Source: Paragorgia papillata
Taxonomy: Eukaryota > Cnidaria > Anthozoa > Scleralcyonacea > Coralliidae
DNA length: 64,000 nucleotides
Reading direction: 5' to 3'
Assembly: GCA_035771165.1 (NCBI GenBank)
Contig: JAWNZC010000351.1
Location: 6,987,501 to 7,051,500 of the forward strand
A program made the translations under genes and the position numbers. The notes under the pieces are model-generated. The model was not told the origin of the DNA and ran no database searches. It saw nothing but the letters and a program-made list of their open reading frames with translations. Below are positions 8,769 through 35,653 of this stretch, one piece after another (the stretch's first letter is position 1; the number at the start of each line of letters is the position of its first letter).

Positions 8769-8783
8769 TTAAGCTTCTGCGGA

Positions 8784-10012: not shown

Positions 10013-10038
10013 GATAGATAAGTTATTTCGACAAAATA

Positions 10039-10482: not shown

Positions 10483-10488
10483 AATAAA
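10483..10488 (+). terminator. Poly(A) signal AATAAA
   Basis: It lies 235 bases after the stop codon and is followed by a T-rich stretch, giving a spliced mRNA of about 0.6 kb. Confidence 0.6.
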
Positions 10489-10509
10489 GGATGTTATATT
10501 TATTCGGTT

Positions 10510-13982: not shown

Positions 13983-14053
13983 TACATATATATATATAGA
14001 AATATATATATATATATATATAATTATATATATAATTATATATATATATATAA
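13983..14053. repeat. AT dinucleotide microsatellite
   Basis: TA/AT runs broken by GAA and AATT. ORFs reading YIYIYI on both strands arise from it. Confidence 0.95.
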
Positions 14054-16699: not shown

Positions 16700-17056
16700 T
16701 TGAACACGAGCTGGCCAAAAATGGCCCCTTTAGTGTTTTGTCTAATGCCAGATGATCAAAGGAAGAACCTCAGACATCCGAGGCAGCAATGGGTTAACAA
16801 GTGATTAACCTATTCCTGCATGAGCCAGCCAAAAATGGCCCCTTTATTGTTTCACTCTGTCTAATGCCATATAATTTTACTCATCAAAGGGAGAATCTCA
16901 GACATCCTTGGCAGCAATGGGTTAACAAGTGATTAACCTGGCTAGTGCCTGTATTCCTGCCACAACTGGCCAAAAATGGCCCCTTTATGGTTTTACTATG
17001 CCTAACACCAGACGATTTTACTTGTCAAAGGGAAAACTTTCAGATATCCCAGGTGG
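16700..17056. repeat. Tandem array, three units of about 115-140 bp
   Basis: Each unit has GGCCAAAAATGGCCCCTTTA, then CTAATGCCAGA...TCATCAAAGG, a CAGACATCC-like word, and GGGTTAACAAGTGATTAACC. The units derive from the GTCTGGCGTTAG MITE family. The third unit is cut by the LINE end at 17057. Confidence 0.75.
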
Positions 17057-17545
17057 CTTTCAAGTTCAAGTTTCAAGTTTTTTTAATTCGCACTATTTCA
17101 CATAAATACATTGAGACAAATAATTACAATAATACAATTCGCACAAACAATACGTACATAGTTCAACAATTCAGTTGTGCACAGAGGTTGAATTAAGGAG
17201 CCGAAGCTTTCGAGGCAACCACTGCAACTTTCAGATAAAAAATGAATAAACGAAGTTAAACTAAATATTGTTGAAATTCATAGCAAAATAATGATTATTC
17301 CTGACTTTTTAGAAGATGTATATAGCTTTATATCGCAAAGTAAGAGAAGAAGAATGTTTAACATCAGTATAAATTGTTTCCCATATTTTTGATGAAATAA
17401 ATTTAAATGTATGAGTTCCATAGTTAGTTCTTACTTTTGGCTTAACTAGATTCATTTTAGCAGCATACCTTGTATTATAGGAATGCTGCTCAGTTACAAA
17501 AGTAACGAATTGGGAAAATACTGACGGGATATTTGAGTTCATATT
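17057..17545 (-). pseudogene. Non-LTR retrotransposon 3' end
   Basis: Read on the minus strand, 17542-17309 encodes the tail typical of LINE reverse transcriptases: HSYNTRYAAK, RTNYGTHTFKF, KIWETI, then a hydrophobic end. The 3' UTR follows, with GTATTTATGTGAAATAGTGC and a tail of AAACTTGAAACTTGAACTTG repeats at 17057-17080. The clade is uncertain (CR1/L2-like). The fragment is 5'-truncated near 17545. Confidence 0.75.
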
Positions 17546-17704
17546 TAAAATTTTATAAGTAAATTCAGCAATTCTGAATTAAAAATTTTTTAATATATTA
17601 TCAAGTTTCAAAATTCCTAAGATATAATATGGCGTAGCACTTTCTCTATGATATGCAAAACACATATTTTTAATACACTTATTTTGTTTAGTTCGTAATA
17701 ACGT

Positions 17705-18053
17705 ATCTTAGTTCACGATCACCTCGGTTTTCTTTGATGTACCACGGTTGTTTATTTATAACAGTTACTCCCAACCACGCATAAATCAAGTTAATTGCCC
17801 GGGCAATTAACTTGATTTATGCGTGGTTGGGAAAATAAGCTTAATCAATGATCACGAATGTGAGAAAGGATTTATCATCGCGACGGAAGTGTTTTTTAGA
17901 CAACCTCTGTGATAACGAACTCAATATCTCAGTTTTCTTAGGCAACCTCTGTGATCGTGAACTAAGTAGGTTAGTTACCTCAACCTTGGTAACTACGTAA
18001 GTTATTTATAAATAACTGACGTAGTGACCTCAGTTTCGGTAACTAACCTATAC
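17705..18053. mobile_element. Foldback region with nested hairpins
   Basis: CTTAGTTCACGATCACCTC (about 17707) pairs with CTCTGTGATCGTGAACTAAG (about 17945-17964). Inside is the 62-bp perfect palindrome. A third hairpin, GTTAGTTACC.../...GGTAACTAAC, spans about 17970-18048. Confidence 0.65.
17770..17831. repeat. 62-bp perfect palindrome, no spacer
   Basis: CCCAACCACGCATAAATCAA begins it, CCCGGG is the centre (17798-17803), and the right 31 bases are the exact reverse complement of the left 31. Confidence 0.95.
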
Positions 18054-18517
18054 TTAGTCAACTTTGAGGTAATACATGTAAGTGGTGGCAATGAGTTTCA
18101 TAAAGAAATTGTACCAAGAGTAAGTCTGGTTGACCGGACGTTTTCTGGGACCAATTAGTCGTCACAACGGCGTCATCAAAAAAGGAAAATTCCCATAAAC
18201 AATTAGGCAGTGAGCCTGCATGAGTTGTCTATGACTACAGTATGAGCTGATAGTCGTAGCTGCAGAGTTAACTATCGTTCATAGACATCGAGTTTTCTGC
18301 CATTATTTTGCATTTAAAACTTGACTATTTTGCTACTAGTGGTCTGTTGTTGCCAATATATAGTGAATAGCTCAGTCAAACAGAATGCAGCATTTGTAGT
18401 AGTCTACTAGTTGGTTTATATACTAATGTGTATTAACTCAAGAATGAAATAAGATATGAAGATTGAGTAAAAGGTAGCCAAAACAAAATTGGTAATTTTA
18501 ACATTTAATTTTTACAG

Positions 18518-19473
18518 TGTGGACTTGCACAACATGAGATGGAAGATGTGCACAAGGCAACTCTTCAGTCCCAACAAAAAGCACTTGACAGTAAGTTAAA
18601 ACTGTATGGAGAAGACCATCCATCAACCGCAGACAGTTATGATAGTATTGGGGTCACAAAACATGAGTTGAAAGACTACAAGTCAGCTCTTCAGGCCAAA
18701 CAAACAGCACTTAACATCCGATTAAAGCTGTATGGAGAAGACCATCCATTAACCGCAGACAGTTATCACAATATCGGGGTGACACAACATGAGATGAAAG
18801 ACTACAAGTCAGCACTTCAGTCCAGCCAAAAAGCACTTAACATCAGGTTAAAGCTGTATGGAGAAGATCATCGATCAACGGCAGAGAGTTATCATAGTAT
18901 TGGACTTACACATCATGAGATGAAAGACTACAAGTCTGCTGTTCTGTCCAGCCGAAAAGCACTTAACATCAGGTTAAAGCTGTATGGAGAAGATCATTCA
19001 TCAACCGCAGACAGTTTTCATATTATTGGGGACACACAACATATGATGAAAGACCACACGTCAGCTCTTCGATCCGAGCAAAAGGCTCTTAACATTAGGT
19101 TAAAGCTGTATGGAGAACACCATCAATCAACGGCAGAGAGTTATCATAGTATTGGGGTCACACAACATAATATGGAAGACTACAACTCGGCTCTTCATTC
19201 CAAGCAAAAAGCGCTTAACATCAGGCTAAACCTGTATGGAAAAGACCATCCATCAACTGCAGACAGTTATCGTAGTATTGGAGTCACACAACTTGAGATG
19301 GAAGACTACGAGCCAGTCCTTCAATCCAAGCAAAAAACACTTAACATCAGGTTAAAGCCGTGTGCAGACGACCATCCATCAACTGCAGCCAGTTATGGTA
19401 TTGGGGACACACAACATGAAATGGAAGGCCAAAACTCAACTTTTCAAGCCGGGGAAGACGAGCTTAACTTCAG
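18518..19473 (+). CDS. Exon a: kinesin-light-chain-type TPR array
   Basis: About seven and a half 42-residue (126-bp) repeats follow the pattern SIGVTQHEMKDYKSALQ, KALNIRLKLYGEDHPSTAD. The acceptor is TTTTTACAG|TGTGGACTTGC. Codons before the first ATG (18539) read GLAQHE, matching the repeat, so the frame is coding from the exon start and the ATG is probably internal. The donor TTCAG|GTATGT leaves phase 2. Beyond it the frame is intron read-through. Such TPRs bind partner proteins or self-assemble. The units are alike at the DNA level, which suggests recent expansion. Confidence 0.85.
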
Positions 19474-22400
19474 GTATGTTAGGGCAGTCTGCATGGGCAC
19501 CTTAGATATATTTCACGTTGGATACCATTTAGTTATGTTTGACATAGGTTAAGTGAAGGAGAGGGAAGGGAAGGGAAAGGAAGGCAAGGGGAAGGGAAGG
19601 AAAGGAAAAGGAAGTGAAGGGTATATTGTCAACTACCAGTAGCAAATACCAGTATGTTTGACGACACCGGTGTTAGCTTTAATGATTTGATCACATTTGA
19701 ATGGTTATAATAGGAAAATAATGTTTAAAATCAGTAGTGACCTCAATTAATATTTTCTTGTTACATAAGCATGTAGTTTAATATTACTATAGCCACTTAA
19801 AAAGTGGGGGGGGGGGGGGGGGGGGGGGGGCAGATCCCTCTACCAAAAAAGTGTGGTGGCCTTGGCCACCTGACCCTCTCTTTACCGTAAATTACGGTGA
19901 TTCTTATATTATAAATTAGAAAAACAGTTACAGAACCATCCTCAGAGAAACATGAGAAAATTTTTCATGATTTTCTTACACTGCTAAAGTCAACCGAAAA
20001 ATTTGATTAATTCTCACGGATTAGCGTTTAAGTTGTCGCGAGAATATCTCGTGCACTTAAGTTGGATAAAACTCGCCTCCAATCCCTGTGCGGCTCGATA
20101 GCTCAACAGGTAGAGCGGCGGACCGGTATTCCGAAGGTGCGAGTTCAAATCCCGCTTGAGTCAGCCGAATTTTTCGGTTGACTTTAGCAGTGTAAGAAAA
20201 TCATGAAAATTTTCTCATATAAAAACAGTCTGGCAGATTCTTTGTCTACGAGCATTTTCAAAAAGCATTGTAATGGCTAGATTTGGTATAGGTACATGAA
20301 AGACTCACTTGAATACCGAAGTTCCGTTCCACATCTGAACTTTAAAGAGGAAATGAAATGAAAATTAAGTTTGCTTCATCTTCACGATCTCCTGAAAGTG
20401 ATAAAGAATGACTTTTACAGTTTTTCCATATCTCACTTCATATGAGAAATACATGAACTCAACAACCCCTCGCCCGCTTTATATGCCTTTTTTAACCCCC
20501 CCCCCCCCCCCCCGTCCCCTAATTTCTGTTTTTTGTTGTATTAATGATCAGAAAACATCCCAGAAAATTAGTTACCAAGGTTCATCTGTAGTCATGTATT
20601 GACACACCGAAAGAGCATGCAAAGTCAATATTAAAAAAAAAAAACACAACGAGATGAACCAAATACGTAGTTTCCTACGGCACGAAGTATAGTAGGAAAT
20701 GACAAGTTTTCATTCAAAAATATATATAAACAGTGGGCAAGAAAAGGCACAATGCCAACGTCCCAGCGTTTTTGTTTCATATGTAAATGAGATAAGATAT
20801 GACGTAAAGTTATGTGCAGATTATTAACTTCTTATTAACCGAGAGCGCAGTCATTACGGGAAAATATCAGACCGAGGTCTTGACAGTATGGACCGAGCCC
20901 ATAGGGCGAGGTTCGTACATAAACTGACCGAGGTCTGATATTTCCCGTAATGACCAAGCGATCGAGGTTAAGTAAGAGGTTTATTATATGGCATGGCTTT
21001 TTTAAACAACATACTTTACATACGTATAGCCGTGACATAGAATCGTCATTTTCAATCTTGTTCTTGTTCTTCTATTGCTTTCATGATAGTAAGGCTCTCT
21101 TTTAGACTGTTCATCGTCCGACTCATACACGATTTAGTGCTTAGTTTACTAAATTCATTCAATTTTTACGGCTTTTCAAAGTTTCCTTTCGTAAACAAAA
21201 TGACTAACCAAATCCGTAATCCGGACTGGTCCATTACCGGGAAATTACGGACCGGCACGTGACGTGTCTCATCCAATCAGAGCACGCAATTCCACCGGAA
21301 GTAACTTGTGTCATATAATAATGTGAGTTATTGGAAAATCATGTCTATCTTTGGAATTATTGAACAATATTATTTAAAACTTTGCAACTATACATGGACC
21401 GCAACATACAAGACCAATTTACGTCATAGTTCATCACATATACATATCAAACAAATATAACTTGAGAGCAAAGTGAAATATGGAAAAACTGTTAAAGTAA
21501 TTCTTCATTATTTTTTGAGATCTTGAAGATAGAGCAAACTTAATTTTTATTTCATTTCCTCTTTAATGATTTAAAATTACATCTAAGCACTTAGGAGTAC
21601 TTTAAAGACTGCAAGTTTTATTTTGTTTCCGCCTCAACCTCGCGTTTTAGACAAAGTGGATATACGTTTATTTTTAAGACTTTAATATTTACATTATTAT
21701 ATAATTTGAACATTAGCTATTAATATCAATATTGTTATTTAGTTTCTCAATGTAAATTTTTTTTAATGTTTTTCTTTATTTATACACGACTCATGCACAA
21801 GCTTGTAGAGCATGTCAAAATAATGGTTATCTTATCTTATGTGCCAATTATTTTTTTTACTAGATGCACAATTGATGAAGGTGGGGGAAGTATTTCCTTT
21901 CCCTCTGCGGGTGCCTTCTTTTACTTTCCAGCTAACGCTGTTTCAAGGCCCACTAGCATAACGTGCACTCATGTGGTTAAGAAAAACAATCTGTTAGAGC
22001 TAAGAAAGGGGGAGTATTTCTGCAGCAGCATTGTCGCTATAGAGTCTGAAGAACCAACTTTTGCCAAGCCAGTCACGGTATTGCTGTCTCATTCAGTTGC
22101 AGTCCAAGGTCCTTATCTTGATTACTATGATGTGACAATGATGCAATGTGGACAACAGTGGAATGATTTGGTAACCAAACACTGCAATAAATTTGAAGGT
22201 ACTACATATGTATATTTGAGTTTTGTCGTGGTTATTTGTCCGACGTTTTGAATGAGAATCCTAATCGTAGATAAATACCTAATTATAAACATAAACCTAA
22301 TAAAAGAAAAAGCTGTGAAAAACCAAACCAAAACAAATAGAAAGTAAAACTTGAAGAAAGACTAAAAAAGAAAATAACCACCGACACAATTCGAAAAAAA

Positions 22401-24553
22401 ACAAAACAAGTCGCGTTTCCACCGAACGGTTAGTAAACCACTCGGCCACTGAAATCAATTGTTAACCCTTTGGTGCCTGTATCGTTTCTTTTGGAACGAT
22501 GCAGCCTTTAGTATTTTACTCTGGCTAACGCCAAACGATTTTACTTGTCAAGGGGAAAGTGCTTGGGTGGCAAGGGGTTAAAGTGCCTATGCAACAAATT
22601 TTTCAAGTTTGACATAATAACATCAAAGTAATTTTTGATATCGCTTCTTTTGAGTGTAAAATTTTTAGAACGAACAATTAAATAGCCCCCCCCCCCCTAC
22701 CAACGGCGCACCGGCTTTATTCCTTGTCCGTGACGTAATGGGTTAATATTTAAATAATTTATAATTATGCAAATAACACTAAAGACCTCGCTCTCGGTTA
22801 TTAAGTAGTTAACATCAGTACTCTGCTACGCTTTTTTCCCTTTTAGATCTCCCTGAAAACAGTGGGTTACGTTTTCCTGCCATACGCGACTATCTGCCAA
22901 TGGCAATGGCAACAGTCCAGGGAAGTTGCACCGCAGCAGTTGCGACAAGAATCAGAAGTGAAACTATTTTGGTGCTTCCTGATAAACCTTGTGTTTTTTT
23001 AAAGTCGTATGGGGAAGAAAGCACGCTGAAAATAAGTTTTCCTGTTTCTGCTGTGGAGATGGAATGTTGTTTGAGCGTAAAGGTAATTCATAATGTATTA
23101 TTTCGATGTAATGTCGTGTGGCTGGGGTTGTGATATGGTTTGGTATCATTTATTTTATTTTTATCATATTTTATTTCATTTCGCTTTGTTTTGCTTTCTT
23201 TCATTTTATTTCATTTCTTTTTTTCTTTTATTTCATTTTTTAAATTTAATTTAATTTTTTTAATTTCATTTCATTTTGTACGTTATTAGTGTTTTCAGCT
23301 TGAGTTGGTAAAGTTTTTTCGTATGATTTTGCTTTTGTTTTTGCTGAGCTCCAGACGGGACTGGTAGACCGACGTTGTTTTCGATATTTATACGCCTGGG
23401 AACTAGTCAAACCGTACGTGTGTCACAAGTACTTGTTGGGTTAGAAGTCGCATTGTGTCAGTTTATTTTCAGTAAATGTTTTTTGTACGTTATTAGTGTT
23501 TTCAGCTTGAGAAAAAAAACAATAAAAAAACAACAAAACTTTACCAACACAAGCTGAAAACACTGATAACGTACAAGAAACATTTACTGAAAATAAACTG
23601 ACACAATGCGACTTGTAGCCTATAACAAGTACTTGTGACACACGTTGACTAGTTAAAAAAGTTAAAAAAACTAAAAGGTTCCACCGTTAAACATAATTCA
23701 TTTCTTTTGAATTTTCTTTATGATTTACTAAAGTATTGGATAAATAATTTTAAAAACTTTAACATACCACAAGATTACAGGGTCAGGGTCCTGTTGGGAC
23801 ACATGGGGAACACCGGGACATTGAGATGGCTTGAACAATTTGGGTTGGCAATGACCGTTTACAAAATGGAAATAATTGTGTTGTTAATTTTTTCTTAGTT
23901 ATTTCCGGCATGCGAAATACTTGATATGGATACAAGGTCAAATGAAGATGAAGATGAAGATGAGGATGAGGACGAGGACGAGGACGACGAGGAGGACGAC
24001 GACGAGGAGAAGGAGGAAGAAGAAGATAAGGAGGAAGAAGAAGATAAGGAGGAAGAAGAAGATGAGGACGAGGAGGAGCAAGAGGACGAGGAGGAGGATG
24101 AGGACGAGGATGAGGATGAGGACGAGGATGAGGATGAAGATGACGATGAAGATCCAGTGTATTTTCCAGTAATTGAAGTTTCAGGACGCGAGAAGCCTTT
24201 TCTTAAACATGTTGATGTGGAGTTGGTTTATTGTCATAACGATGTAGCTGAATTGGACGATGAGCTATTGCCTATTGGCAAGAAGGAACCTTTTTCACCA
24301 GAATGTGGAGTTTTGTTTTCCAGTCAAAAATCCGACCAAAGCAACACAACCTGGCAAACAGAGGATACAAATGCAACGATCGAACGTCTTGAAAACAATC
24401 GAGTAAGAATAGCTTTTTCTGTCGCACATTTTTCTAGGTGAGTGTAATATTGTGGCATTTCTGTATTTCTAGGTTTCTTAATTAGCTAGTGGATTTAAAC
24501 ACACTGTCGATTAACCCTTTCATGCGCGTTGTTGTTGTCGAACAACTTTCTCT

Positions 24554-24586
<33 letters not shown>

Positions 24587-27500
24587 ATCAGGGGGAGACG
24601 TGTCGGAGAGCCATGCGTGAAACGGTCAAGGGATTGGGGTCGTGGGCAAAGCAGTGTGGGAAGCAAAGCAGTGTGGAAAGCAAAGCAGTGTGGGCAGCAA
24701 GCCAGTATGGGAAGCAGGCAGTACGATAATTAGCAGGGCAGTATGGGAATTAGCAAAGCAGTATGGGAAGCAAGGCAGTATAGCAAACATGGCAGTATGG
24801 GAAGCATGGCAGTATGGGAAGCAAGACAGTATGGGAAGCAAGACAGTATGGGAAGCATGGCAGTATGGGAAGCAAGACAGTATGGAAAGCAATGCAGTAT
24901 GGGAAGCAAGACACTATGGCAAGCATGACAGTACGGCAAGCATGACAGTATGGGAAGCACGGCAGTATGGGAAGCAAGACAGTGTGGGAAGCAAGACAGT
25001 ATGGGAAGCATGACAGTATGGCAAGCATGGCAGTATGGGAAGCAAGACAGTATGGGAAGCAAGACAGTATGGCAAGCATGGCAGTATGGGAAGCAAGACA
25101 GTATGGGAAGCAAGACAGTATGGCAAGCATGACAGTATGGCAAGCATGACAGTATGGGAAGCAAGACAGTATGGCAAGCAAGGCAGTATGGCAAGCAAGG
25201 CAGTTTGGGAAGCAGGGCAGTATGGCAAGCAATGCAGTATGGGAAGCAAGGCAGTATAGGAAGCATGGCAGTATAGGAAGCATGGCAGTATGGGAAGCAT
25301 GGCAGTATGGGTATGGGAAGCATGGCAGGCAAGCCAGTATGGGAAGCATGACAGTATGGGAAGCATGGCAGGCAAGCCAGTATAGGAAGCATGACAGTAT
25401 GGGAAGCAAGACAGTACGGGAAGCATGATAGTACGGGCAGCAAGACAGTATGGGAAGCATGGCAGTATGGGAAGCATGGCAATATGGGAAGCAAGACAGT
25501 ATGGGAAGCATAGCAGTATGGCAAGCAAGATAGTATGGGAAGCAAGACAGTATGGCAATCATGGCAGTATGGCAAGCAAGACAGTACAGGAAGCAAGACA
25601 GTATGGCAAGCAGGGAAGTATGGGAAGCATAGCAGTACGGGAAGCATGGCAGTATGGCAAGCAGGGCAGTATGGGAAGCATGGCAGTACGGGAAGCAAGA
25701 CAGTATGGCAAGCATGGCAGTATGGGAAGCAAGACAGTATGGCAAGCAGGGCAGTATGGGAAGCATGGCAGTACGGGAAGCAAGACAGTATGGGAAGCAT
25801 GGCAGTATGGGAAGCAAGACAGTATGGCAAGCAGGGCAGTATGGGAAGCAAGACAGTATGGCAGGCAAGACAGTATGAGAAGCAAGGCAGTATGGGAAGC
25901 AAGGCAGTATGAAAAGCAAGATAGTATGGGAAGCAGAGCAGTATGGCAAGCAAGATAGTATGGGAAGCAAAACAGTATGGGAAGCATAGCAGTATGGGAA
26001 GCAAGGCAGTATGGGAAGCAAGGCAGTATGAGAAGCATGGCAGTATGGCAAGCATGGCAGTATGGGAAGCAAGACAGTATGGGAAGCAGAGCAGTATGGC
26101 AAGCAAGATAGTATGGGAAGCAAAACAGTATGGGAAGCATGGCAGTATGGGAAGCAAGGCAGTATGAGAAGCATGGCAGTATGGGAAGCAAGGTAGTATT
26201 GGAAACATGGTAGTATGGGAATTAGCAAGGCAGTATTGGAAGCATGGCAGTATGAGAATTAGCAGGGCAGTATGAGAACTAAGGCAGTATGAGAATTATC
26301 AAGGCATTATAGTGGTGCGGGACCCCTTTTAGGGCAGCTCGCAAAAGGCTTCCCTTCGCTAGCCTGGATGTCGGCTTGGGTAAGCGGTAGTACATCCTAT
26401 GCCACCCTTCGCAGGGTTACGCGTGGTTCAGGGGTAGCGGTGGCGTGAGCATGAAAATAGCATCTGATAGCGACTGCGTCCTAATGGTTCAGTTCGATTT
26501 CTTATGTCCTTGGAGAGGCAGATTACCAATACTATTGGTAAATGGCTTGCCATACTGTTCTAGCTAGCGGAGCACCGTAGTACTCCTAACAAGCTCTGTG
26601 GAGAGTAGGGGCCATAAGTAGTACATCTGGCAAATGGTATCCAATCCAATTTACCACCAGTCGTATTACAATACTTGCCACTGGGTTGTGGTGATGAGGA
26701 GGCGCGACGGTATCAACACCAAAAACAAATCAAGTGCGAAGGAGTTCATGAGGAGATGAAAGTCGAATAGCGATGGGGGAATGACGAAGCGACAGACGAG
26801 GATAACGCTGGTAGTCGTAGTCGTAAACCTGCACGTTGGCGGTTTGCAAGTGATTGTCGCTCTGCCCATACCACCGGAGCAATATGGCAGTTCGGTAGCT
26901 TTTCAGACGACAGAGCAGCTCTTTTTTGAGAGGCCACTGCTCTGCTCAGGCTGCCCCAAAGTAACGGTTGCTCCGTCTAACCTGGCCAGCAAACTGCGCG
27001 GATTGTCTCATCTTGCGGTCGAAACAATTGAAAACAAAAAGCAAACAAACAAGCAGCACCGACAGGAATCCAGTGTGCCACGTGTGGAAGACTATGTGAA
27101 TCTGCAGCAGGGCTTGCAGCCCATGCACGTGCCCACGATCGTTGAAGTGACCTCAAAAACAGTCTTCGTTGGGCACGACGTGACATCCATTATTATTATT
27201 ATAAGGATTAGCGAAGCAGTGTGGGAATTAGTAAGACAGTGTGGGAATTAGCAAGGCAGTGCATGTGGGAATTAGCAAGGCAGTATGGCATCTAAGGCTG
27301 TATGGGAAGGAAAGCAGTATGGGAAACAAAGCAGTATGGGAAGGAAAGCAGTATGGGAAGTATATCCAGATCAACCTCTCATTGCTCAAGAGCTTATTGC
27401 AATAAATTAGATGGTTTGATTTTGTATATATTTTTTTTAAATTGTATTTTGGCCTTGTCAGGTTGGTCTTGTCCACGGCACGGAAATTATATTTTAAACC

Positions 27501-30500
27501 ATGCAATAATTAGGTGTAATTAGGTATAATTATTGTGTAAAGGACTGAGTTCTAGTTAATAAAATGCGCAATGTACTGCGCATTTTGAGCTGGCCTCCAC
27601 CAGGGCCATTTGTTCCCGCCATTTTGTTTTTATTCGCCATCTTGGCCCAGTTCCCTACAAATGGCCCTGGGTACGAGGTTGTATCCAGATTTATAAAGGG
27701 TTAATGTCTGCTCCCGAGGGAAACAGTTAGTTTTGTTTTCCCGAGAGTCTAAATGTTTCCGGAGACGAAGTCGAGGGAAACATCGAGACTCGAGGGAAAA
27801 CAACTGTTTCCTGAGGGAGCAGACATTAAGTGCTTTGTTATATAGCTAGAGTTTCGCTGAATAATTTCGACGTTTATCAAGGGAAAGTACACAAAAGACA
27901 AACTGAAAGACTTACTAAAAAAATTACGCCTGACTTCGTAAATATTTCACTTCAACTAAATATGAGTCTCAGAACAAAACAACAGCAATACATTTCTCCA
28001 GTTAATCTTCACACATGCTTTAAAGACCTATAAATAATATTTTTTGTATCAAACAAGCTTTTGTTTATAGGATACCGTGAAGAGTTCAAAGTTCTGGCGG
28101 GCAACAATTGCAATATTATTGACCGAGTGGGCAATAAGTTCTCAATTGTTGCCCACTCGGTCTACATTGGAATTTAGCTAAGGTCATGTGACCACAAACC
28201 AACCAATGACAGTCATCGTTTTATCCAGCCAAACTCTAGCTATATAACAACTGGTGTTGTTTCTAGTAATATGGCCATATGAGCGATGTTGAAGTTTCAA
28301 TACTAACAGAATACTATTAATTGCAATGGTCAAAATGAAGGCAATGTTTATCCTTAGTAGCAACTTTTGGAGTGCTTGAAAATCATTTATAAACTCTGTC
28401 GTTGTGTTGTTATACAGGTGGTTTTTCATTGGAAGGAGGAAGAGAAGAGCAGCCCTACCTGACATCAGAATGATGGAGACCTTTGGTGAGCCATCTTCAA
28501 CAAATGTTGTGGTAGTTTTTTTGGCCGTTCAACAGATGACGTCTCTTACTTCAATCATGGCGCCCCAGAACAAGAATAGAGAAGTTGAAAGGGAATGGGG
28601 ATTTAAAGGAGAAGAATGTCAGAAACCTGTCCAACCTTACCAAGAGGCGTATTTTTGTGTTCATTTGTTACCAAAGAAGAAACGTTTATCACTTGACATT
28701 GACACTATCTGGTAAGTTAGAATATTTATATATACTCTGACTTGAAAATTAAATACGCTCCTTCCCGCTAATAGGCCGCCTCCGTCTAACAGTTCTCTAC
28801 TTCTAATGGGTCTCCTTCTTCTGATAACTTTTCTCTCTTTAATACGCCCCTTCCCTCTAATAGCCCCCCTTTTCTTTGTTATGCTCTCTCCTTCTATGAA
28901 CCCCTCCTTCTTTTAAGCCCCCTTTCCTCTAATAAGCCCTTCCTATTAAGCCCCCTTTCCTTTATTAAGCCCCTCCCTCTAATAAGCCCCTTCTTCTATT
29001 AAGCCCTTTCCATTTTAATAAAAGGAAAGGGGCTTAATAGAAGGGGGGCGTGTTAAAGGGAGGGGCTTAAAAGCTCCTCCTCTAATAAGCCCCTCATTCT
29101 CTTAAACCCCTTCACTTTAATAAGATCCTCCCTCTAATGAGCCCCTCCTATTAAGCCTCTTCCCTCTGATAAGCCCCCTCATTCTATTAAGCCCCCTTCA
29201 CTTTATTAAGCTCCTCCCCTATAATAAGCCTCTCCCTCTATTAAGCCCTTTTTCCTCTGATAAGCCCCATTCTTCTATTAAGCACCCTCCCTTTATTAAG
29301 CGCCCTCCCTCTATTAAGCCCTCTCCTTCCAATAAATCTCTCCCTCTTTTAAGCTTGTACCCTAACCTATATAACTTATACGATAGCCTGACTCACTAGC
29401 TTGTTTACTGCCTAGCTTATACACTAACCTGACTTACTAGCTTGTTTATGCCTAGCTTATACACCAACCTGACCCACTAGCGTGTTTACTGCTTAGCTTA
29501 TACACTAACCTGACTCACTAGCTTGTTTATTGCCTAGCTTATACACTAACCTGGCTCACTAGCGTGTTTACTGCTTAGCTTATACACTAACCTGACTCAC
29601 TAGCTTGTTTATTGCCCAGCTTATACACTAACCTGACTTACTAGCTTGTTTATTGCCTAGCTTATACACCAACCTGACCCACTAGCGTGTTTACTGCCTA
29701 GCTTATACACTAACCTGACTCACTAGCTTGTTTATTGCCTAGCTTATACACTAATAACCTGATCCACCAGCTTGTTTGCCACCGAGCTTATACACTAACC
29801 TGACTCGCTAGCTTGTTTACTGCCTAGCTTATACACTCACCTGACCAGCTATAGCTTGTTTACTGCCTAGCTTATACGCTAACCTGACCCACTAGTGTGT
29901 TTACTGCCAAGCTTATATACTAATCTGACCCGCTCGCTTGTTTACTGCCTAGCTTATACACTAACCTGACCAACTAGCCTAACTTATAGATTTTTTTAGT
30001 TATTTATTTTATTAATTTCAGTTTTGGGCTTGAACGTGTAACGAAAACGTTTAACGATATTGATGATGGATTGGATTTAAAAGGAAAGCTGATGTACTTT
30101 TTGTGTAGTCGTTGTAAAAAGAAGGGACACAAAAAGACTTTCTTGCAAAATATTCGTATCAAATCAGCGAACGACAGACAGGTATGTTGCATGACGTTTG
30201 TTAGGACACTGGTGTATTTACCGCTGTGATTGTCAGATTCTGAGTCCACAATTACTGCTAGTATTATTAGACGCCTGTATTCTAAAAGCTCACTCACACT
30301 CAATGAGTGGCCCCTCACATTCAATGCGTCTCCACTCACCCTCACTGAGTATGAGACTACACTCACTCTCCAACCATTCAATTGAATGGTTGGAGAGTGA
30401 ATGTAGTCCCATACTCAGTGAGTGGAGACTCATTGAGTGTCGAGTTGCACTTATTAATGAGTGGGCCACTCATTGAGTGTGAGTGAGCTTTTAAAATACA

Positions 30501-33500
30501 GGCGTGAGTTTCTGAGCCCACAATGCTATTATCTGTAGTTTCTAGAGGTATTATATGTAGGAAAAGGACTTAATCATGCATTCATGTATGTGCTGATGTG
30601 AACCTGTCCAGCTAGGCCAACCGAAGAAAAGCGCGGGGGAAAAGCTTGAATTGCGTTTTTTGAACGTTTTTTTGTGCTGAGGGAGTGGTTTTCTTTAAAT
30701 TTTTAACTGAAAATGTATAATAAAGCCTTCGGCTTCGGCAGATAACACAGTCTTCGATAATTTATTGATATCAAAATAGTCTCATCCAATAATTGTTTAT
30801 TATTATACAATACTGATACAATCTCGACTGTCATTGGCTTAAAACCTACAGACAATTCTTGATGTCTTTCCACCTACAAAATATCAAAAATTATCTGTAG
30901 CTATGATGCGCTGGCCAGCGGTTTGAACAAAACAAACATGGCGGCCGTCCTAGGAGAGAAGATCAGAAGCGGATTAATCCGGCGGATTTGGCACGTTTTG
31001 TTGACGCTAAAAACCACCAAGAAAAACCAAGCGAGCTACACATATAGCTGTTAGAGTTTAAAGCAGTGTTTGAAAGAGAAAATTGTATTCGAAAGCGAAA
31101 AAAGTTGGCGAACCTCGAACTGAAGACGGTATGAATATTTACTATTTTTACCTAACTTTATAAAAAAAACGTTCTAAAGGCTTCTACATTTATCATATTT
31201 CATGCGTCATATTTCAAGTCCTAGGACTAGAAATATTATTTTCTAGTCCTTGGACTGGAAATAACATTTCTAGTCCTCTTCCCGGTAGAATTCAGCGCTT
31301 GTGATTAATAAAATTAACGTGATACGCCATATTCATACGTGATTTAATTGATCAGTTGCTTAGCTTATAAATGACGTGAGCCAACCGCTTGTTGTTATTG
31401 CTCTGATGAAGGCCTGAGTCAACAGGCCGAAAGCTTAGCAAATAAATATTTTACGTGGTGTTTCCACAAAACTTATTTGTATTACATTATCGCCATGAAA
31501 ACTTTCAAAGAATTAAATAAAAAATTATACGTGGTGTTTTCACAAAACTTATCTGAATTAAAATTATTATGTTTTGCGTTTGTGTTATAGACTGAGTTTG
31601 TTGTGGCGGAGGACTGTCACGAAGCAGGTAGGTCGGTCGAGGTACATTTTTCTTCATTTTAGGACTCAATTCACAACCCCCGGCGAGAAACTGAAAAGAT
31701 ATTTGTTGTTTTTTATTTTCTAGACGAGACTCCCATTTCTCCTCCACTTGAGACCAATGAAAATGTCCCAGGTACAGGTACATCTGTTTTTAAAGCGACT
31801 CTTCTTTTTAGAAAAGACGCAATTGTTTTTTAATTGTTTTTTAGTCAGGATAGTGAGGTCCTGTTACATGCATATTAAAATACAACACAACAATAAGTAA
31901 TTACCGAGACGGAGCCATTCAGCTAGTTAGTGACTGAGGCCCAAACTGCCCACTGCCCAGGTCACTAACCCTAGCTTAGTTACCGACTTCGAGGTAACTA
32001 TTTGACTTAATTCATTCATAATATAGATACGATATCTGTCGTTATTAAAAAAATAATATTATTCAAGACGTAGTTTTAAAGCAATATAGTAGGTCATAGG
32101 TCATTTAATATGCAAGGTGACTAACCTCTACATTTATATTATCCGCGGCATATCAAAGATAATCGACGCATCAATAACCTAATATAACATATTTTGATTA
32201 AATTTAAACAATATCAGCTGATAAATTAGTTGCTTCGTTTGTCGGTCGATCGGTCAGTCAATTAGTTAGTGATAGTTTGTCTTTCAACTAGTTAGTGAGT
32301 CCGTAGTTTTCGTTTTATTGTCCAAGTTGTAGAAGTCCTTTGCAGCATGATAAATACACTTCTGTTTCTACCAATTTGTGTTGGCTTTTGGTAGATGTAA
32401 TTGTTGTTTATCCTTGTGTTGTATGTATGTATGAAAGTTGGTGTTTGTGTTTAGTGTAGTTTGAAGTCGTAATCTATTAGGTCATTTAAATTATCGGGTC
32501 ATTTATTATTGTACACCTAAAAATACAAAAAAATACATCGACGTCTAATTGCCAAGAGAGTCCAGTTTATGATTTTTAAGGCTTCAGTTGCTGTACAAGC
32601 TGTCGTTAGTTAATCTCAGAGAAAACTCTGAGCTCTAGACAGAGCTCTAACCCACAACCTTCTGAATGTCAGACGGACGTTCTCACCATTGAGCCACTGG
32701 AACTCAGATGGTGGGAACTAGTCAAATCGTATACGTGTGTCATAAGTACTTGTGGGCTACGAGTTGCATTGTGTCAGGGTTTTTTTTAGTGATTCAATGG
32801 TTTTCTTCGTTAGTATATTGAAGTTGGTTATAAAATATAAAGTTTCGTTTGTTTTTGCCGTAAGTTATAAACACGTACGGTTTGACTAGTTCCCAGGTAT
32901 ATTATCGTAAACAACCTCGGTCTACCATCTGAGTTTCAGTGGCTCAATGGTTAGCGCGTCCGGTTGGCATTTGGAAGGTTGTGGGTTCGAGTCCTGTCTG
33001 GAGCTCAGAGCTTTTTGAGGTTATTAACGGCAACTTACGACAACTATTAACGGCAACTTATACGTACAGCAAAAACAAAGGAAACTCTACTAACTTCAAG
33101 CTGAAAACACTATACTAACGTAGGAAAAGTAATAATAATTGTACACCGAAATTTTGCACTATAATATCCTATCGCTAAAATCCGTCTTTCATCTTCCTTC
33201 AACGAATCTCTTTTTTAGCTTTTCGCAGAGCAAAATCCTTGGAACATTGAATTCTTAGTACTTAGGAGCGTTCATAATTTACTTAGTGGGGAGGCTATGG
33301 TGATTTTAATTTTTTTACTACATTTTTTTGGAAGCCCTCCCTAATATTCACAGGGGATTTCTTCTGCCTCCCCCCCCCCCCCTCCCTCATGTGATACCAT
33401 CCATGCAAAGGTAAATGTTTGTGACCCCCTACTCTAAAGTTGATCTGACTTCCTCTAAAATGAGTGATAAGTGTATAGTCATTTTGCACATGAGTATTTC

Positions 33501-35513
33501 ACATGTCAGTATTTCCATCATTTATAACTAAACTTTATTTTCGCAAACTGAAACCCTTCACAACAAGTTAAAAAATACCACTAATGATAATTGCATGCTT
33601 TCCAATACAAATAATCTTCCACACTTTATACAAAAATGACTGTACTGAATTTTATTGCTGTTTTATTAAAGGTAATTTTATGATGACCCCCCTCCTTGCA
33701 CTCTGTTTTATTTTGGGGGTGATTTTCGAAAGCCCTCCCAATCTCGTTCCCAGAGCCCACGTTCCCCACCCGGGAAACGAGAGATTCTGGGATAATCCGT
33801 TTCATATCGTTACATTATTGGCTGAATAGTGAGCATGAGTTGGTCTGAAGTAACCGGAAGTAGAATTAATAAAACCAAAATAACAAAGATGTCGGACGAC
33901 AAGACTCCAGTGAAGACGTTGCTGCGATCGATATCTTCGCCGTATGTGTGCAGATGCTGTAATGCGAGTTTCGCCAACAGCAACCCCATTGACTTGTTTG
34001 GGGAAAAGTCAAACAAGGAGAACATACTATCCAGATTCCGCTCGGATATTTACGCATGCGTACCTCAACCGGAATAACAAGAATCCTGTGATTTAAAACG
34101 GATTATCCCAGAGTCTCTCGTTTCCCGGGTGGGGAACGTGGGCTCTGGGAACGAGATTGAAGCCCTCCCCTAAAACTTATTGTTGAGAAATTATGACCTC
34201 CCCTCAAAATCGTCATAGCCCCCCCCCTCCCCCGCTAGGTAAATTATGAACGGAGTCTTAGGAGCAGTAAGAAGGGCTTGTTATGGTACTCAGAGTAGCA
34301 CCTAATATGATTATTTTCCAAAATTGTTTTAAATAAGAAAATATTTTAATGCTATTGTTATTAGTACCTTGTTGTACCTTGTTAATAGAACATATACATG
34401 GTTTGGAAGCTCTTTTGTCTTTCAACATGAAGCATGGTCATGTTGAACTGACAATGGAGTTCCTTATATGGAAGTAAATTCTATGGACAGGTGACGATGA
34501 AGCACCACAACACGATCGGAAATCGCATAGAAAATTGGACACTTTCATGGGGCAGTTCGCAGTCCACGTGCGTGCTGGCTCAAGTGAGTTTTGAGGACAT
34601 TTGAAACTGATGAATTTGAGAAGGGTAATGGCTTCGTACATCGCGAAAATTCCACGAGTTGTCAACAAACCGTATTCTATGGCAAGCCCAACATTCGTGC
34701 TATGCGCTCGTGGAAGAATTATGGTCGAGCGACGATTTTGAGCGGAGATGTTTGACTTTGAGCTCGGGGTGTCCTCGCTGAAGTGTGCAGCCTGTCGGCC
34801 GTGTATTGATGACGTTTACACGCAAGATATTCGTTCTACGCATGCGTAGCTAATACGGGTCAGCCCGTATTTCGCGAGCATCGACAGCCGCCATTTCCGA
34901 TCGTGCACGTGACGATGAAGCAACTCACTAAATAAACCCGAGCGTTGCTATTGGATGACTGCTTCATTATACAGAAAATACAATACCGTGAAATTGCACA
35001 AATTTCCATGAACTTGAACAAAAACATAGAACAATCACTTTTGGACGAGTTTCCAAACCATGTATGTGTTCTATTAACTATGGTTGTACTTATAAAAGAT
35101 CCGGGTTTTTACTATCTTATTCTTAGTCCTTTCTGCCCTGACGATGAACGCTTAATTCGAAAGCTCGGTCATTCTTTTTAATTTCTATTTTATTATAAAC
35201 TATTTTAATAAAAATCTATAACCAGCAGAAACAAACTGTGTTATAAAGATGAAATACCCTAGCTACAAACCAATCTTAGATTTAATAATTATGTCGTTAG
35301 TAGTGTTGAATCGTTTTGATCTCAATTTCCATAGATGTGCTCGGGGACGCCGAAATCGTTTTAATAGCAAAAAGAATTCCGGAGCGGTGGAAGGAAATAG
35401 GTCTTTTGACGGCGCTATTCGAATCGTGCGAAATTAACGGTATACGGTGCTCCAGAATTGACGTCAAAAGCTTTGACCATGCTCACGCAATTCAACGAAA
35501 GAAATGGAACTAG
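18518..35513 (+). CDS. TPR-ZU5-UPA-Death protein, PIDD1-like C-terminal order, 5' end open
   Basis: Nine exons (18518-19473, 21864-22198, 22847-23082, 23899-24437, 28418-28711, 30022-30181, 31591-31627, 31724-31771, 35335-35513) join with every phase matching and no internal stop, giving 927 residues. Order by this numbering: TPRs 1-315, ZU5 about 320-430, second ZU5-like region about 431-688 with an acidic run (about 523-594), H-F-S at 686-688, UPA-like 689-840, linker, Death-like from 869. In PIDD1 ZU5 segments self-cleave at HF|S and the Death domain recruits RAIDD or RIP1; here that role is inference. TPRs replace PIDD1's LRRs. The exon carrying the true start lies upstream and was not found. 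Confidence 0.75.
19806..19830. repeat. 25-base G homopolymer
   Basis: An uninterrupted G run. Its true length is uncertain because such runs are poorly sequenced. Confidence 0.95.
19952..20219. mobile_element. Foldback element enclosing a tRNA-like sequence
   Basis: ATGAGAAAATTTTTCATGAT and ACTGCTAAAGTCAACCGAAA on the left pair with TTTCGGTTGACTTTAGCAGT and TCATGAAAATTTTCTCAT on the right. Arms are about 52 bp and nearly perfect. The tRNA-like 20092-20162 abuts the right arm. Confidence 0.8.
20092..20162 (+). tRNA. tRNA-like sequence, probably a tRNA pseudogene or SINE head
   Basis: A cloverleaf can be drawn: a 7-bp acceptor stem (GGCTCGA / TTGAGTC, two G-T pairs), D stem GCTC/GAGC, an anticodon stem with one mismatch, T loop TTCAAAT. 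A-box TAGCTCAACAGG and B-box GAGTTCAAATC are present. Position 33 is C rather than T and the T stem has a mismatch, so a working tRNA is unlikely. The loop would give anticodon GGT. Confidence 0.5.
20346..21562. mobile_element. TTAA foldback element, 1.2 kb, with inner insertion
   Basis: TTAA lies at 20342-20345 and 21563-21566. AGAGGAAATGAAATGAAAAT and AATTTTTATTTCATTTCCTCT end the arms, which extend inward (AGTTTTTCCATATCTCAC / GTGAAATATGGAAAAACTG). The hairpin at 20838-20968 sits inside. It has no transposase. Confidence 0.7.
20838..20968. repeat. Hairpin, arms with ATATCAGACCGAGGTC
   Basis: TTATTAACCGAGAGCGCAGTCATTACGGG pairs imperfectly with CCCGTAATGACCAAGCGATCGAGGTTAA, and AAATATCAGACCGAGGTC with GACCGAGGTCTGATATTT. 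The loop carries GGACCGAGCCCATAGGGCGAGG. Confidence 0.75.
21864..22198 (+). CDS. Exon b: ZU5 domain
   Basis: Acceptor TTTTTTTTACTAG|A; the first base completes an Arg codon begun by exon a. CTIDEGGGSISFPSAGAFF followed by YFPANAV matches the ZU5 opening (GG.L..P..G....IP..A), and later FAKPVTVLLSH and a W near the end fit the fold. The donor GAAG|GTACTA leaves phase 1. ZU5 is a beta-rich module found in UNC5, ankyrin and PIDD1. Frame before 21864 is intron. Confidence 0.85.
22199..22846 (+). other. Intron b-c with MITE and tRNA-like fragment
   Basis: 22462-22581 is a GTCTGGCGTTAG-family MITE (TTAACCCTTTGGTGCC / TGGCAAGGGGTTAA). AGTGCCTATGCAAC follows TTAA at 22578-22581, the left end of the foldback family at 8247. 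On the minus strand near 22400-22440, TCAGTGGCCGAGTGG looks like a tRNA A box without its B box. A C tract lies at about 22686-22698. Confidence 0.6.
22847..23082 (+). CDS. Exon c: continuation of the ZU5/UPA region
   Basis: The acceptor CCCTTTTAG|AT gives GAT (Asp) with exon b. The piece reads DLPENSGLRFPAIRDYLPM to AVEMECCLSVK without a stop and ends in phase 0 at AAAG|GTAATT. No named domain is recognised alone. By position it links the first ZU5 to the second ZU5-like segment. Confidence 0.75.
23083..23898 (+). other. Intron c-d with T-rich run and hairpin
   Basis: 23143-23280 is an imperfect TTTCATTTTATT repeat. At 23400-23655, AACTAGTCAA, GTGTGTCACAAGTACTTG and AGTTTATTTTCAGTAAATG pair with complements in the right arm. 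The outer words recur around the tRNA-like pair at 32.7-32.9 kb. Confidence 0.7.
23899..24437 (+). CDS. Exon d: acidic run and second ZU5-like segment with H-F-S
   Basis: Acceptor TTTTTTCTTAG|TT, phase 0. After LFPACEILDMDTRSN comes a run of about 70 residues almost wholly Asp and Glu, coded by a GAN repeat (about 23938-24152). Then YFPVIEVSGREKPFLKHVDV, a tryptophan, and VAHFSR at the exon end. HFS is coded at 24427-24435. The donor CTAG|GTGAGT leaves phase 2. The acidic length is probably polymorphic. In PIDD1 the HF|S bond is broken by an intein-like attack of the serine. Confidence 0.8.
24642..26312. repeat. 17-bp minisatellite, about 95 units
   Basis: The unit is GGGAAGCAAGACAGTAT with variants AGCATGGC and GGCAAGC. 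Because 17 is not a multiple of three, all frames read the same 51-bp cycle, and the unit lacks stops in several frames. Long ORFs therefore open on both strands (two of 492 codons on the minus strand). They are not genes. Confidence 0.95.
26313..27204 (+). pseudogene. RTE-type retrotransposon 3' end inside the minisatellite
   Basis: The stretch is richer in G+C than its surroundings. At 27074-27136 it encodes a C2H2 finger (CATCGRLCESAAGLAAHARAH), and after a short tail it ends in ATT repeats (about 27188-27201), as such elements do. No intact RT is seen, so it is a rearranged fragment. Minisatellite resumes on the far side (27205-27362), which shows the insertion split the array. Confidence 0.65.
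27205..27362. repeat. 17-bp minisatellite, remainder
   Basis: Units such as GGGAATTAGCAAGGCAGTA and GGGAAGGAAAGCAGTAT resume directly after the retroelement tail. Confidence 0.85.
27363..27705. other. Intronic, no feature recognised
   Basis: AT-rich DNA. A short inverted pair AAAATGCGCAATGTACTGCGCATTTT spans about 27561-27586. Confidence 0.5.
27706..28245. mobile_element. Modular foldback element, relative of 14951-15692
   Basis: The first hairpin (27702-27832) pairs TAATGTCTGCTCCCGAGGGA with TTTCCTGAGGGAGCAGACATTA; its loop reads GACGAAGTCGAGGG. GTTATATAGCTAGAGTTT (27837-27854) pairs with AAACTCTAGCTATATAAC (28224-28241). A second hairpin (28099-28164) has GCAACAATTG.../...CAATTGTTGC and CCGAGTGGGC / GCCCACTCGG. 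The middle resembles the other element (CAAACAAGCTT, GAGTTCAAAGTTC). Confidence 0.7.
28418..28711 (+). CDS. Exon e: UPA-like segment
   Basis: The acceptor TTATACAG|G completes Arg, so HFSR runs into WFFIGRRKRR, comparable in position to the aromatic stretch after the second cleavage site of PIDD1. The rest has alternating hydrophobic stretches (NVVVVFLAV, AYFCVHLLP). The donor CTG|GTAAGT leaves phase 2. It lies after a 4-kb intron filled with repeats. Confidence 0.8.
28740..29352. repeat. Minisatellite of about 20 bp, TTAAGCCCCTCCCTCTAATA, with inverted block
   Basis: Pyrimidine-rich units with drift. At about 29016-29069 the strand flips (GGAAAGGGGCTTAATAGAAG), so one block of units is inverted. 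Confidence 0.85.
29353..29995. repeat. 41-bp minisatellite, about 15 units
   Basis: The unit reads TGCCTAGCTTATACACTAAC then CTGACTCACTAGCTTGTTTAC. Changes between units are few. Confidence 0.95.
30022..30181 (+). CDS. Exon f: end of UPA-like segment
   Basis: Acceptor AATTTCAG|T, completing Cys; then FGLERVTKTFNDIDDGLDLK, LMYFLCSRCKKKG and FLQNIRIKSANDRQ. The donor AGACAG|GTATGT leaves phase 0. The ND.DDG pattern with the following strand fits the end of a UPA module. Confidence 0.8.
30272..30506. mobile_element. Foldback element with CACTCAATGAGTGG words
   Basis: CGCCTGTATTCTAAAAGCTC and ACTCACACTCAATGAGTGG pair with the right arm (CCACTCATTGAGTGTGAGT, AGCTTTTAAAATACAGGCG). The centre is CCAACCATTCAATTGAATGG. 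About 25 similar bases (CTGAGTCCACAA.. / CTGAGCCCACAA..) flank it on both sides. Confidence 0.8.
31190..31500. mobile_element. Retroelement tail with hammerhead-like core
   Basis: CTCTGATGAAGGCC, a loop, AGGCCGAAAGC (about 31410-31435) has the order CUGAUGA, stem, GAAA of a hammerhead ribozyme, with stem GGCCT/AGGCC. ACGTGGTGTTTCCACAAAAC follows and is repeated at about 31530. Such motifs are known at the ends of Penelope-like elements. No coding part is present. Confidence 0.45.
31591..31627 (+). CDS. Exon g: 37-bp linker exon
   Basis: Acceptor GTGTTATAG|ACTGAG, donor AGCAG|GTAGGT. It reads TEFVVAEDCHEA plus one base. It is accepted because the incoming phase 0 and outgoing phase 1 both fit its neighbours. 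Very short exons are easy to mis-call. Confidence 0.6.
31724..31771 (+). CDS. Exon h: acidic linker exon with two possible donors
   Basis: The acceptor TATTTTCTAG|AC gives GAC with exon g, then ETPISPPLETNENVP. Two donors, CCCAG|GTACAG (31771) and TACAG|GTACAT (31777), lie six bases apart and keep the same phase, so two forms differing by two residues are possible. Confidence 0.6.
32632..32703 (-). tRNA. tRNA-like sequence, degenerate
   Basis: Read on the minus strand: TGGCTCAATGGTGAGAACG (A box) and GTGGGTTAGAGCTC (altered B box), with possible acceptor GTTCCAG / CTAGAGC. It is the inverted partner of 32933-33004 and probably a pseudogene. Confidence 0.45.
32933..33004 (+). tRNA. tRNA-like sequence (GGC in anticodon position)
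   Basis: Acceptor GTTTCAG / CTGGAGC pairs with three G-T wobbles; D arm GCTC..GCGC has one mismatch; anticodon loop TTGGCAT; T arm GTGGG TTCGAGT CCTGT. The boxes TGGCTCAATGG and GGTTCGAGTCC are intact. The wobble pairs and its place in an inverted repeat favour a SINE head or pseudogene over a working alanine tRNA. Confidence 0.5.
33739..34159. mobile_element. Inner TIR element, 64-bp arms, 9-bp target duplication
   Basis: CAATCTCGTTCCCAGAGCCC begins it and GGGCTCTGGGAACGAGATTG ends it. The arms continue to about 33803 and 34097 (GGATAATCCGTTT / AAACGGATTATCC). AAGCCCTCC flanks it at 33730-33738 and 34160-34168. It shares end sequence and duplication length with 37730-38543. Confidence 0.85.
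33889..34077 (+). CDS. Short ORF inside the inner TIR element, Cys-Cys motif
   Basis: From ATG 33889 the frame reads MSDDKTPVKTLLRSISSPYV, then CRCCNASFANSNPIDLFGEK and ENILSRFRSDI to a stop, 62 residues (an upstream ATG at 33829 adds 20). C-x-x-C followed by DLF and an amphipathic helix recalls the first half of a ZAD-like zinc module, a weak resemblance. It fills the element between its arms, so it may be a relic first exon of the autonomous transposon or a captured host exon. It could also be chance. Confidence 0.35.
   Translation: MSDDKTPVKTLLRSISSPYVCRCCNASFANSNPIDLFGEKSNKENILSRFRSDIYACVPQPE
34505..34908. mobile_element. Inserted segment with 14-bp direct repeats
   Basis: GTGACGATGAAGCA occurs exactly at 34491-34504 and 34909-34922. 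Just inside, CACGATCGGAAAT and ATTTCCGATCGTG are complements. No coding is recognised; the ORF at 34438-34668 (minus) crosses the boundary. Confidence 0.6.
35335..35513 (+). CDS. Exon i: Death-like domain with frame disturbance
   Basis: The acceptor AATTTCCATAG|AT gives GAT (Asp). DVLGDAEIVLIAKRIPERWK then EIGLLTALFESCEI fits helices 1-3 of a Death domain, including the core Trp. The open frame stops at TAG (35511). A better continuation, APELTSKALTMLTQFNERNG, lies one base out of frame between about 35448 and 35520. Then VVVALGKDEQQSLAQKVG returns to the first frame and would stop at 35602. This pattern needs one extra and one missing base, real or from assembly. Confidence 0.65.
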
Positions 35514-35653
35514 AAAACAGTAGTCGTGGCTCTTGGTAAAGATGAACAGCAATCTTTGGCTCAAAAAGTGGGGTTTGGATTCTTTATCCATAGGCGTAGA
35601 CAATGACCAAATAACTTTTTTGCCATATTGATATATAGGAGGTCTTAGGAGGT

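Follow-up and report, generated by a model that had tools for sequence, protein, structure and literature searches.

A 64,000-nucleotide stretch of the genome of the cnidarian Paragorgia papillata (contig JAWNZC010000351.1, positions 6,987,501 to 7,051,500 of the forward strand; hereafter the window) carries a nine-exon gene that begins with a TPR array and a ZU5 domain and ends in a truncated Death exon. We read this gene, with confidence slightly above even, as one 3'-damaged member of a tandemly amplified family encoding TPR - ZU5 - ZU5 - UPA-like - Death proteins that would act as self-cutting sensors. A sequence-only reading of the window had joined nine in-phase exons ending at 35604 into a PIDD1-like platform with TPRs in place of LRRs. 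We re-derived the exons from the window sequence, checking splice sites, phases and open frame. The join stands: every internal junction is GT-AG, all phases are compatible, and the joined frame encodes 927 amino acids (aa) without an internal stop. The end at 35604 does not, as the frame actually stops at a TAG at 35511-35513.

A gene family in the same genome

The arrangement recurs in the window's own assembly (617.9 Mb in 473 contigs), which contains 31 ZU5 matches at E <= 0.001. We took 20 stretches around ten of these matches, comprising six TPR-type loci (c149a, c149b, c149c, c150a, c150b and c368), three loci of a sister type (c4, c300 and c396) and the locus c314. At five of the six TPR-type relatives (c149a, c149b, c149c, c150a and c150b), the TPR array, first ZU5, exon 3, second ZU5, exons 5-6 and Death exon follow one another in the same order on one strand; with order and strand recurring in this way, the nine-exon join is more than chance. 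Three of these relatives, c149a, c149b and c149c, are intact, encoding 1137, 1096 and 1073 aa, respectively, counted from the TPR exon, with the same phases as in the window. The features of the window gene are as follows.

11631-11720, +: 90-bp element that may be a promoter of the gene family or a non-coding 5' exon
18518-19473, +: exon 1, kinesin-light-chain (KLC)/NPHP3-type TPR array, 318 aa; AG before 18518, GT after 19473; phase out 2
21864-22198, +: exon 2, first ZU5 domain; a 335-bp exon of the same size in c149a-c
22847-23082, +: exon 3, end of the first ZU5 (without HF/S) and start of the second ZU5
23899-24437, +: exon 4, acidic insert and, after it, the bulk of the second ZU5
23944-24153, +: D/E/K/Q run, 70 residues within the second ZU5
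24427-24435, +: HF/S motif closing the second ZU5; self-cleavage predicted between Phe and Ser
28418-28711, +: exon 5, first part of the UPA-position segment
30022-30181, +: exon 6, second part of the UPA-position segment
31591-31627, +: exon 7, short linker exon, found in 5/5 relatives searched
31724-31771, +: exon 8, short linker exon, whole or partial in 5/5 relatives searched
35335-35513, +: exon 9, truncated Death exon with terminal TAG at 35511-35513
35462-35463, +: deletion junction where 11 bp present in c149a-c and c150a,b are absent; causes a frameshift within the Death domain

Window exons 1-6 and 9 aligned with c149a-c over 91-100% of their length, and introns 1, 2, 3, 4, 6 and 8 over only 0-24%; for intron 5 the aligned fraction was 53-92%, and for the 96-bp intron 7 it was 95-100%. 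Exons 7 and 8 were often missed by the aligner and were searched for directly in the five ordered relatives. Intron 4 measures 3980 bp in the window copy versus 113 bp in c149a-c. Within the window intron, at 24600-26300, short GGCAGTATGGGAA-like units, recognised by eye, are repeated in a long array that creates extended open frames on either strand.

A census across the genome sorted 12 ZU5 matches by place as TPR-type: three on contig C149, seven on C150, one on C351 (the window) and one on C368. The second-ZU5 exon is present at 11 of the 12 loci (the exception is C150:2041202), and a family Death exon lies downstream on the same strand at 11 of the 12, with none near C368. Nine of these Death exons are near complete and open, one is partial (residues 1-74 of 88, C150:2046683), and that of the window contains a stop. 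At least nine of the 12 loci have a TPR piece in the same orientation 0.8 to 12 kb upstream; C150:526495, C150:782987 and C368 have no TPR piece nearby among the matches listed. The three C149 copies are in tandem within about 50 kb. Taken with the lesions described below, this looks like a birth-and-death family of intact and broken copies. Downstream of c149b there is a second open Death exon, 3.6 kb further on (G000:C149:1666504-1666764, - strand), 86% identical to the query; it is possibly an alternative last exon.

At its 5' end, exon 1 opens at a splice acceptor inside a TPR unit, and therefore a 5' part of the gene is missing from the model. The first in-frame ATG of exon 1, at 18539, lies within a block kept at all six loci aligned, and from the conservation of this block we suggest that translation may start there. 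The sequence just upstream of exon 1, aligned among the six loci, contains no common coding exon, and a Pfam scan of the three + frames of window positions 1-18518 at E <= 0.01, insensitive to short exons, gave no match. The 90-bp element occurs at 12 places in the genome (12 of 12 candidates scored), window copy included, the other 11 sharing 90-93% identity with that copy. Every one of these places precedes family TPR exons, at a distance of 3.5-11.6 kb and in the same orientation; the loci carrying the element are eight of the nine with a TPR exon, and it was found nowhere else. The four copies that were read lack an ATG and share no frame open in all four. The element is thus a candidate family promoter or non-coding first exon, and its presence upstream suggests a non-coding 5' start for the window gene. 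We had initially taken it for a mere repeat, a reading rejected because of its uniform placement. Common pieces were also found when the region upstream of exon 1 was compared with the stretches upstream of c149a and c150b. One piece near 11839-11885, beside the 90-bp element, recurs in loci L019, L022 and L032 as well.

Domains, cleavage motif and selection

The kinesin-light-chain-type TPR array of the earlier reading is confirmed by a Pfam TPR_12 match to exon 1 (E 1.2e-59, 198.8 bits), and its ZU5 domain by a Pfam ZU5 match to exon 2 (E 2.7e-10, 40.8 bits against a cut-off of 21). Seven anchored TPR units can be counted in the window copy, spaced by 42 residues at all six steps; across copies the number varies from 7 to 11, with a unit of 42 residues at all but one step. 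Pfam ZU5 matched all six aligned family members. Compared with solved structures, the family profile found ankyrin ZU5 domains as its best four matches (E 0.0006-0.004), through the first ZU5.

The second ZU5 fold is weak by sequence but in register, and we infer it from profile and structure comparisons. A search of PDB with the joined window protein returned the ankyrin-1 tandem ZU5 in second place (E 1.3), in register across exons 2-4, and a profile comparison of the family second ZU5 with that of another locus of this genome, L029, set HF opposite HF (E 0.034). The acidic insert varies in length among the TPR-type relatives, and the long insert is absent in the three sister loci read. L029 (on C347) has a long frame at 2415-5479 (+) with two Pfam ZU5 stretches, HFS following the first and HFT the second; after this frame come two Death exons, of which one, at 57.4 bits, passes the Pfam cut-off of 22.6 bits and the other, at 18.8 bits, falls short of it. 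L029 itself is a possible PIDD1 orthologue; no LRR was seen by eye in the 6 kb, four frames scanned.

The residues A-H-F-S stand at the end of the second ZU5 in all seven TPR-type loci read (the window, c149a-c, c150a, c150b and c368), in c150a after an insertion, and H-F-C occupies the corresponding site in all three sister loci read. Each protein has a single HF[STC] in the window copy and c149a-c, and none of the six aligned family sequences has HF/S at the end of the first ZU5. PIDD is reported to cleave itself at HF/S after each ZU5, with Ser, Thr or Cys as possible nucleophile and SF/S as the motif in CARD8 and NLRP1 (PMC3210808). Judged by motif, the family keeps the equivalent of the second PIDD site without the first, and its proteins are predicted to cleave themselves at HF/S.

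The segment encoded by exons 5-6 fits a UPA domain in position and length, and from these and from the company it keeps we infer a UPA there. The final exon of each of the five relatives has an unbroken frame of about 90 residues up to its stop codon. That of c150a exceeds the Pfam Death cut-off (28.3 against 22.6 bits), while those of c149c and c150b score 21.8 bits each, 0.8 bit under it. Death was the best match in three of the four relatives tested; CARD_2 appeared in the Death exons of three relatives only at E 0.07-0.1, and was the top match, below cut-off, in c149a. A profile built from the Death exons of the five relatives and one copy on C443 found 1wxp, THO complex subunit 1, as its best solved structure (E 0.007); vinculin and TRADD came next, at E 0.5 or higher. 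We take the 1wxp chain to be a Death domain. By these sequence matches, the Death domain is real in the relatives. A genome search with the family Death exon gave 94 rows, 81 of them outside the TPR-ZU5 family and several being pieces of one exon; 20 of the outside rows are near complete and 56-64% identical to the query, on contigs C443, C330, C251, C368, C72, C265, C329 and others. Upstream of one C443 copy, no other domain-sized frame was seen by eye in an 8-kb stretch.

Selection was measured as pairwise Nei-Gojobori dN/dS between the window and its relatives, in comparisons that are short and non-independent. The ratio was 0.38-0.60 for exon 2 (5 pairs), 0.22-0.52 for exon 3 (6 pairs) and 0.17-0.25 for the second ZU5 after the acidic insert (5 pairs). 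Exon 5 gave 0.43-1.14 (5 pairs), exon 6 gave 0.34-0.92 (5 pairs, the c149c block starting six bases off the true acceptor), and the first 42 Death codons gave 0.72-2.27 (5 pairs). For the whole Death exon among the five relatives, the range was 0.58-1.26 (10 pairs). The pattern suggests constraint on the cutter and an output side that is free or diversifying.

Proposed mechanism and competing explanations

The mechanism that we propose would run in four steps. The TPR superhelix, with a repeat number that differs by copy, would bind a ligand or would itself be the bait. The second ZU5 would cut itself at HF/S, yielding two fragments that stay associated, TPR-ZU5-ZU5 on the N-terminal side and UPA-like-Death on the C-terminal side. 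Ligand binding, or removal of the N-terminal fragment as in NLRP1/CARD8, would then free or cluster the C-terminal fragment, and clustered Death domains would recruit a Death-domain adaptor, as PIDD1-CC recruits RAIDD. Self-cleavage, a cytosolic place, ligand sensing, release and the partner are all proposed by analogy with PIDD1-CC and NLRP1/CARD8. PIDD1-CC, the UPA-Death fragment, is reported to have caused cell death where PIDD1-C did not (PMC11637483), and UPA to lower the threshold of filament assembly in NLRP1/CARD8 (PMC7794386).

In NLRP1/CARD8, where a FIIND (ZU5-UPA) is followed by a CARD, the likeness lies in the N-terminal sensor part and in one predicted self-cleavage site just before the UPA-position segment with its death-fold domain; unlike those proteins, the family has Death rather than CARD, two ZU5 units, and TPRs rather than NACHT-LRR or a disordered bait. 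Self-cutting ZU5-UPA modules drive the PIDDosome and the NLRP1/CARD8 inflammasomes. If our reading is true, an early-branching animal family that joins TPRs, this module and Death would suggest that the module served generally as an output cassette for many sensors, and one could then test directly whether cleavage at HF/S and release of UPA-Death are ancestral traits. A more speculative extension, which we put forward tentatively and hold to be rather unlikely, is that these are lineage-specific self-cutting TPR receptors comparable to NLRP1-like 'trip-wire' sensors, in which the Death fragment would be released on engagement or destruction of the TPRs. Tandem arrays would stand under the common upstream element, a constant ZU5 cutter would be coupled to a diversifying UPA-position/Death output (through an arms race or as private signalling channels), and truncated copies would be decoys.

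Published work reports NACHT-ZU5 proteins in cnidarians and early-diverging animals (PMC8260672, PMC12909245), an expanded ZU5 group in sponges (PMC3482391), and TRADD-N fused to UPA-Zu5 and, separately, to TTC28-like TPRs (PMC8195603). These proteins resemble the family in combining ZU5 or ZU5-UPA with varied partner domains, some in expanded families, but the text passages covered do not describe the TPR-ZU5-UPA-Death order. The TPR-CHAT proteins of Acropora (PMC12314368) likewise come from families expanded in a coral, and their N-terminal TPRs belong to the same Pfam type (PF13424), but they have CHAT in place of ZU5-UPA-Death. No description of the TPR-ZU5-UPA-Death architecture was found in the full-text literature in the parts available, a scope that excludes subscription papers, supplements and database annotations. 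A large protein collection yielded 0 of 7304 and 0 of 7996 candidates at E <= 0.001; because ZU5 is common in animals and nothing matched, this collection seems to be without close animal relatives.

Other loci of this genome place ZU5 frames next to partner domains of several kinds. The sister subfamily has eight second-ZU5 places, one of them in pieces, on C4, C300, C213 and C396. At c396 the sister ZU5 follows closely after a 774-aa frame in which HEPN_DZIP3 and NPHP3_N exceed their cut-offs and NACHT falls below its own. Separate loci on C92 have the strongest ZU5 matches of the genome together with sub-threshold UPA matches, and are presumably UNC5-like in appearance. In a single 17-kb stretch at c314 (L027/L028), of which about 5 kb is masked, there are frames for Macro-WWE, for ZU5 and for Death.

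Several observations weigh against the reading of the window as a member of a family of TPR-ZU5-ZU5-UPA-Death sensors. The 5' end of the window gene is unproven. The second ZU5-like segment of the earlier reading has its terminal HF/S and its in-register alignments, but the window copy has no Pfam match there, the top hit of the PDB search was an unrelated TFIIS fragment (E 0.17), and the profile match between the family and L029 second ZU5 has a probability of just 1.5%. For the UPA-like segment, position and length agree, but the joined proteins of six family members gave no Pfam UPA match, exons 5-6, compared as a profile with the UPA-position part of L029, did no better than shuffled sequence (163 of 200 shuffles reached the observed score), and an exon-by-exon genome search with the UPA model, insensitive to split domains, found six sub-threshold matches, all on C92. 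The Death-like domain, upheld by the Pfam match in c150a, is broken in the window copy, which has only about the first 42 residues and no Pfam Death match, either as exon peptide or in the joined protein; a profile search of the joined translation thus recovered ZU5 and neither UPA nor Death. The Death exon of c149a had no Pfam Death match (four relatives were tested singly), and vinculin scored about level with TRADD in the Death profile search. At c368, exons 2-6 are present, and the TPR and Death parts of family type are missing in the 17 kb read (no TPR exon within 7 kb upstream, no family-type Death exon within 10 kb downstream). Two of the five ordered relatives carry other lesions: exon 4 of c150a has an insertion just before the HF/S motif, and in c150b the frame of exon 2 is broken. 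Finally, the dN/dS values near 1 in many Death and UPA-position pairs fit relaxed constraint equally well. A Pfam Death match of unassigned kind lies about 10.5 kb beyond exon 5 of c368 on the same strand.

The most serious alternative concerns the window copy alone. It may be a pseudogene without a product of its own, only its relatives being functional; we regard the chances of this as evenly balanced, and it is compatible with the family reading. The window Death exon lacks 11 bp present in all five relatives, so that the frame is lost and a stop falls in mid-domain, and after the deletion there follow a further 1-bp difference and another frame change. The loss of 11 bp is atypical of a sequencing slip, and since it comes from a single assembly it may be an assembly error. 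The lesions of c150a and c150b show the same birth-and-death pattern. Against this, the other eight exons are open with good splice sites and dN/dS of the second ZU5 is low; any decay is therefore recent. A product without most of the Death domain could also be a decoy. With at most half a Death domain in its product, the window copy is therefore probably a young pseudogene or a non-signalling decoy.

Two further explanations concern the identity of the whole family. A true PIDD1 orthologue in which LRRs were exchanged for TPRs would account for the domain order after the repeat array, for HF/S at the equivalent of the pre-UPA cut, and for the C-terminal Death in the relatives, all as in PIDD1 (LRR-ZU5-ZU5-UPA-Death). 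We consider it improbable, since the family comprises at least 12 loci by lineage expansion where PIDD1 would not be multi-copy, has TPRs in the place of LRRs (none was found in the + strand scan of window positions 1-18518), lacks HF/S after the first ZU5, has an acidic insert in the second, and has no UPA detectable by profile. Peptidase_S68, the PIDD model, had no match over cut-off in an exon-by-exon search of the genome, which may miss split domains (best 21.5 bits against 31.9), and none in Pfam scans of the joined proteins. There is also a closer sister subfamily with HF/C, one member of which adjoins the HEPN_DZIP3-NPHP3_N frame. This evidence points to a local NLR-like ZU5 family rather than PIDD1. 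The PIDD1-like platform of the sequence-only reading therefore survives as a domain order that recurs in the family and an HF/S in seven of seven loci, and neither PIDD1 orthology nor a PIDDosome partner follows from the data.

A structural adaptor of the ankyrin or UNC5 kind, serving as a membrane or spectrin scaffold rather than as an immune or death platform, is a shade less probable still. Among solved structures, it is ankyrin ZU5 domains that the family profile matches best (top match E 0.0006). UNC5/UNC5CL have ZU5, the UPA position and Death in sequence, as the family does. However, the family differs from UNC5/UNC5CL in its two ZU5 units and its TPRs, with no receptor part found, and the scan of the three + frames up to the TPR exon (E <= 0.01) gave no ankyrin-repeat match. 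The HF/S motif, the relation of the Death exon to many other Death exons, the tandem expansion with lesions, and the sister locus adjoining HEPN_DZIP3-NPHP3_N also argue against a scaffold.

Least of all do we credit two separate genes, a TPR gene ending after exon 1 and a ZU5-UPA-Death gene downstream: although the TPR frame continues 15-36 codons beyond the donor before a stop at six loci read, c368 has the ZU5 part without a TPR exon within 7 kb upstream, and the two C150 loci named above have no TPR piece nearby among the matches listed, the window and c149a-c all retain the GT donor and the phase-2 junction into the ZU5 exon, the sequence beyond the donor varies between copies by insertions or deletions, and the TPR-ZU5 order is kept at six of seven TPR-type loci (window included) although window intron 1 cannot be aligned with c149a-c, as expected of one gene.

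Other features of the window

Downstream of the gene, a 395-aa frame at 40710-41897 (+) has a SOCS box just over the Pfam cut-off (23.6 against 23.5 bits), and a long TTCTA-type simple repeat at 42400-43970 has open frames in all three + frames. A 416-aa open frame at 57102-58352 (+) encodes a rhodopsin-type GPCR (G-protein-coupled receptor; 7tm_1, E 1.6e-45). Finally, frames on both strands at 59747-61172 contain a 'YIGETGRRLSDRFAEHLRS'-like motif, which we take to be typical of retroelement GIY-YIG domains.

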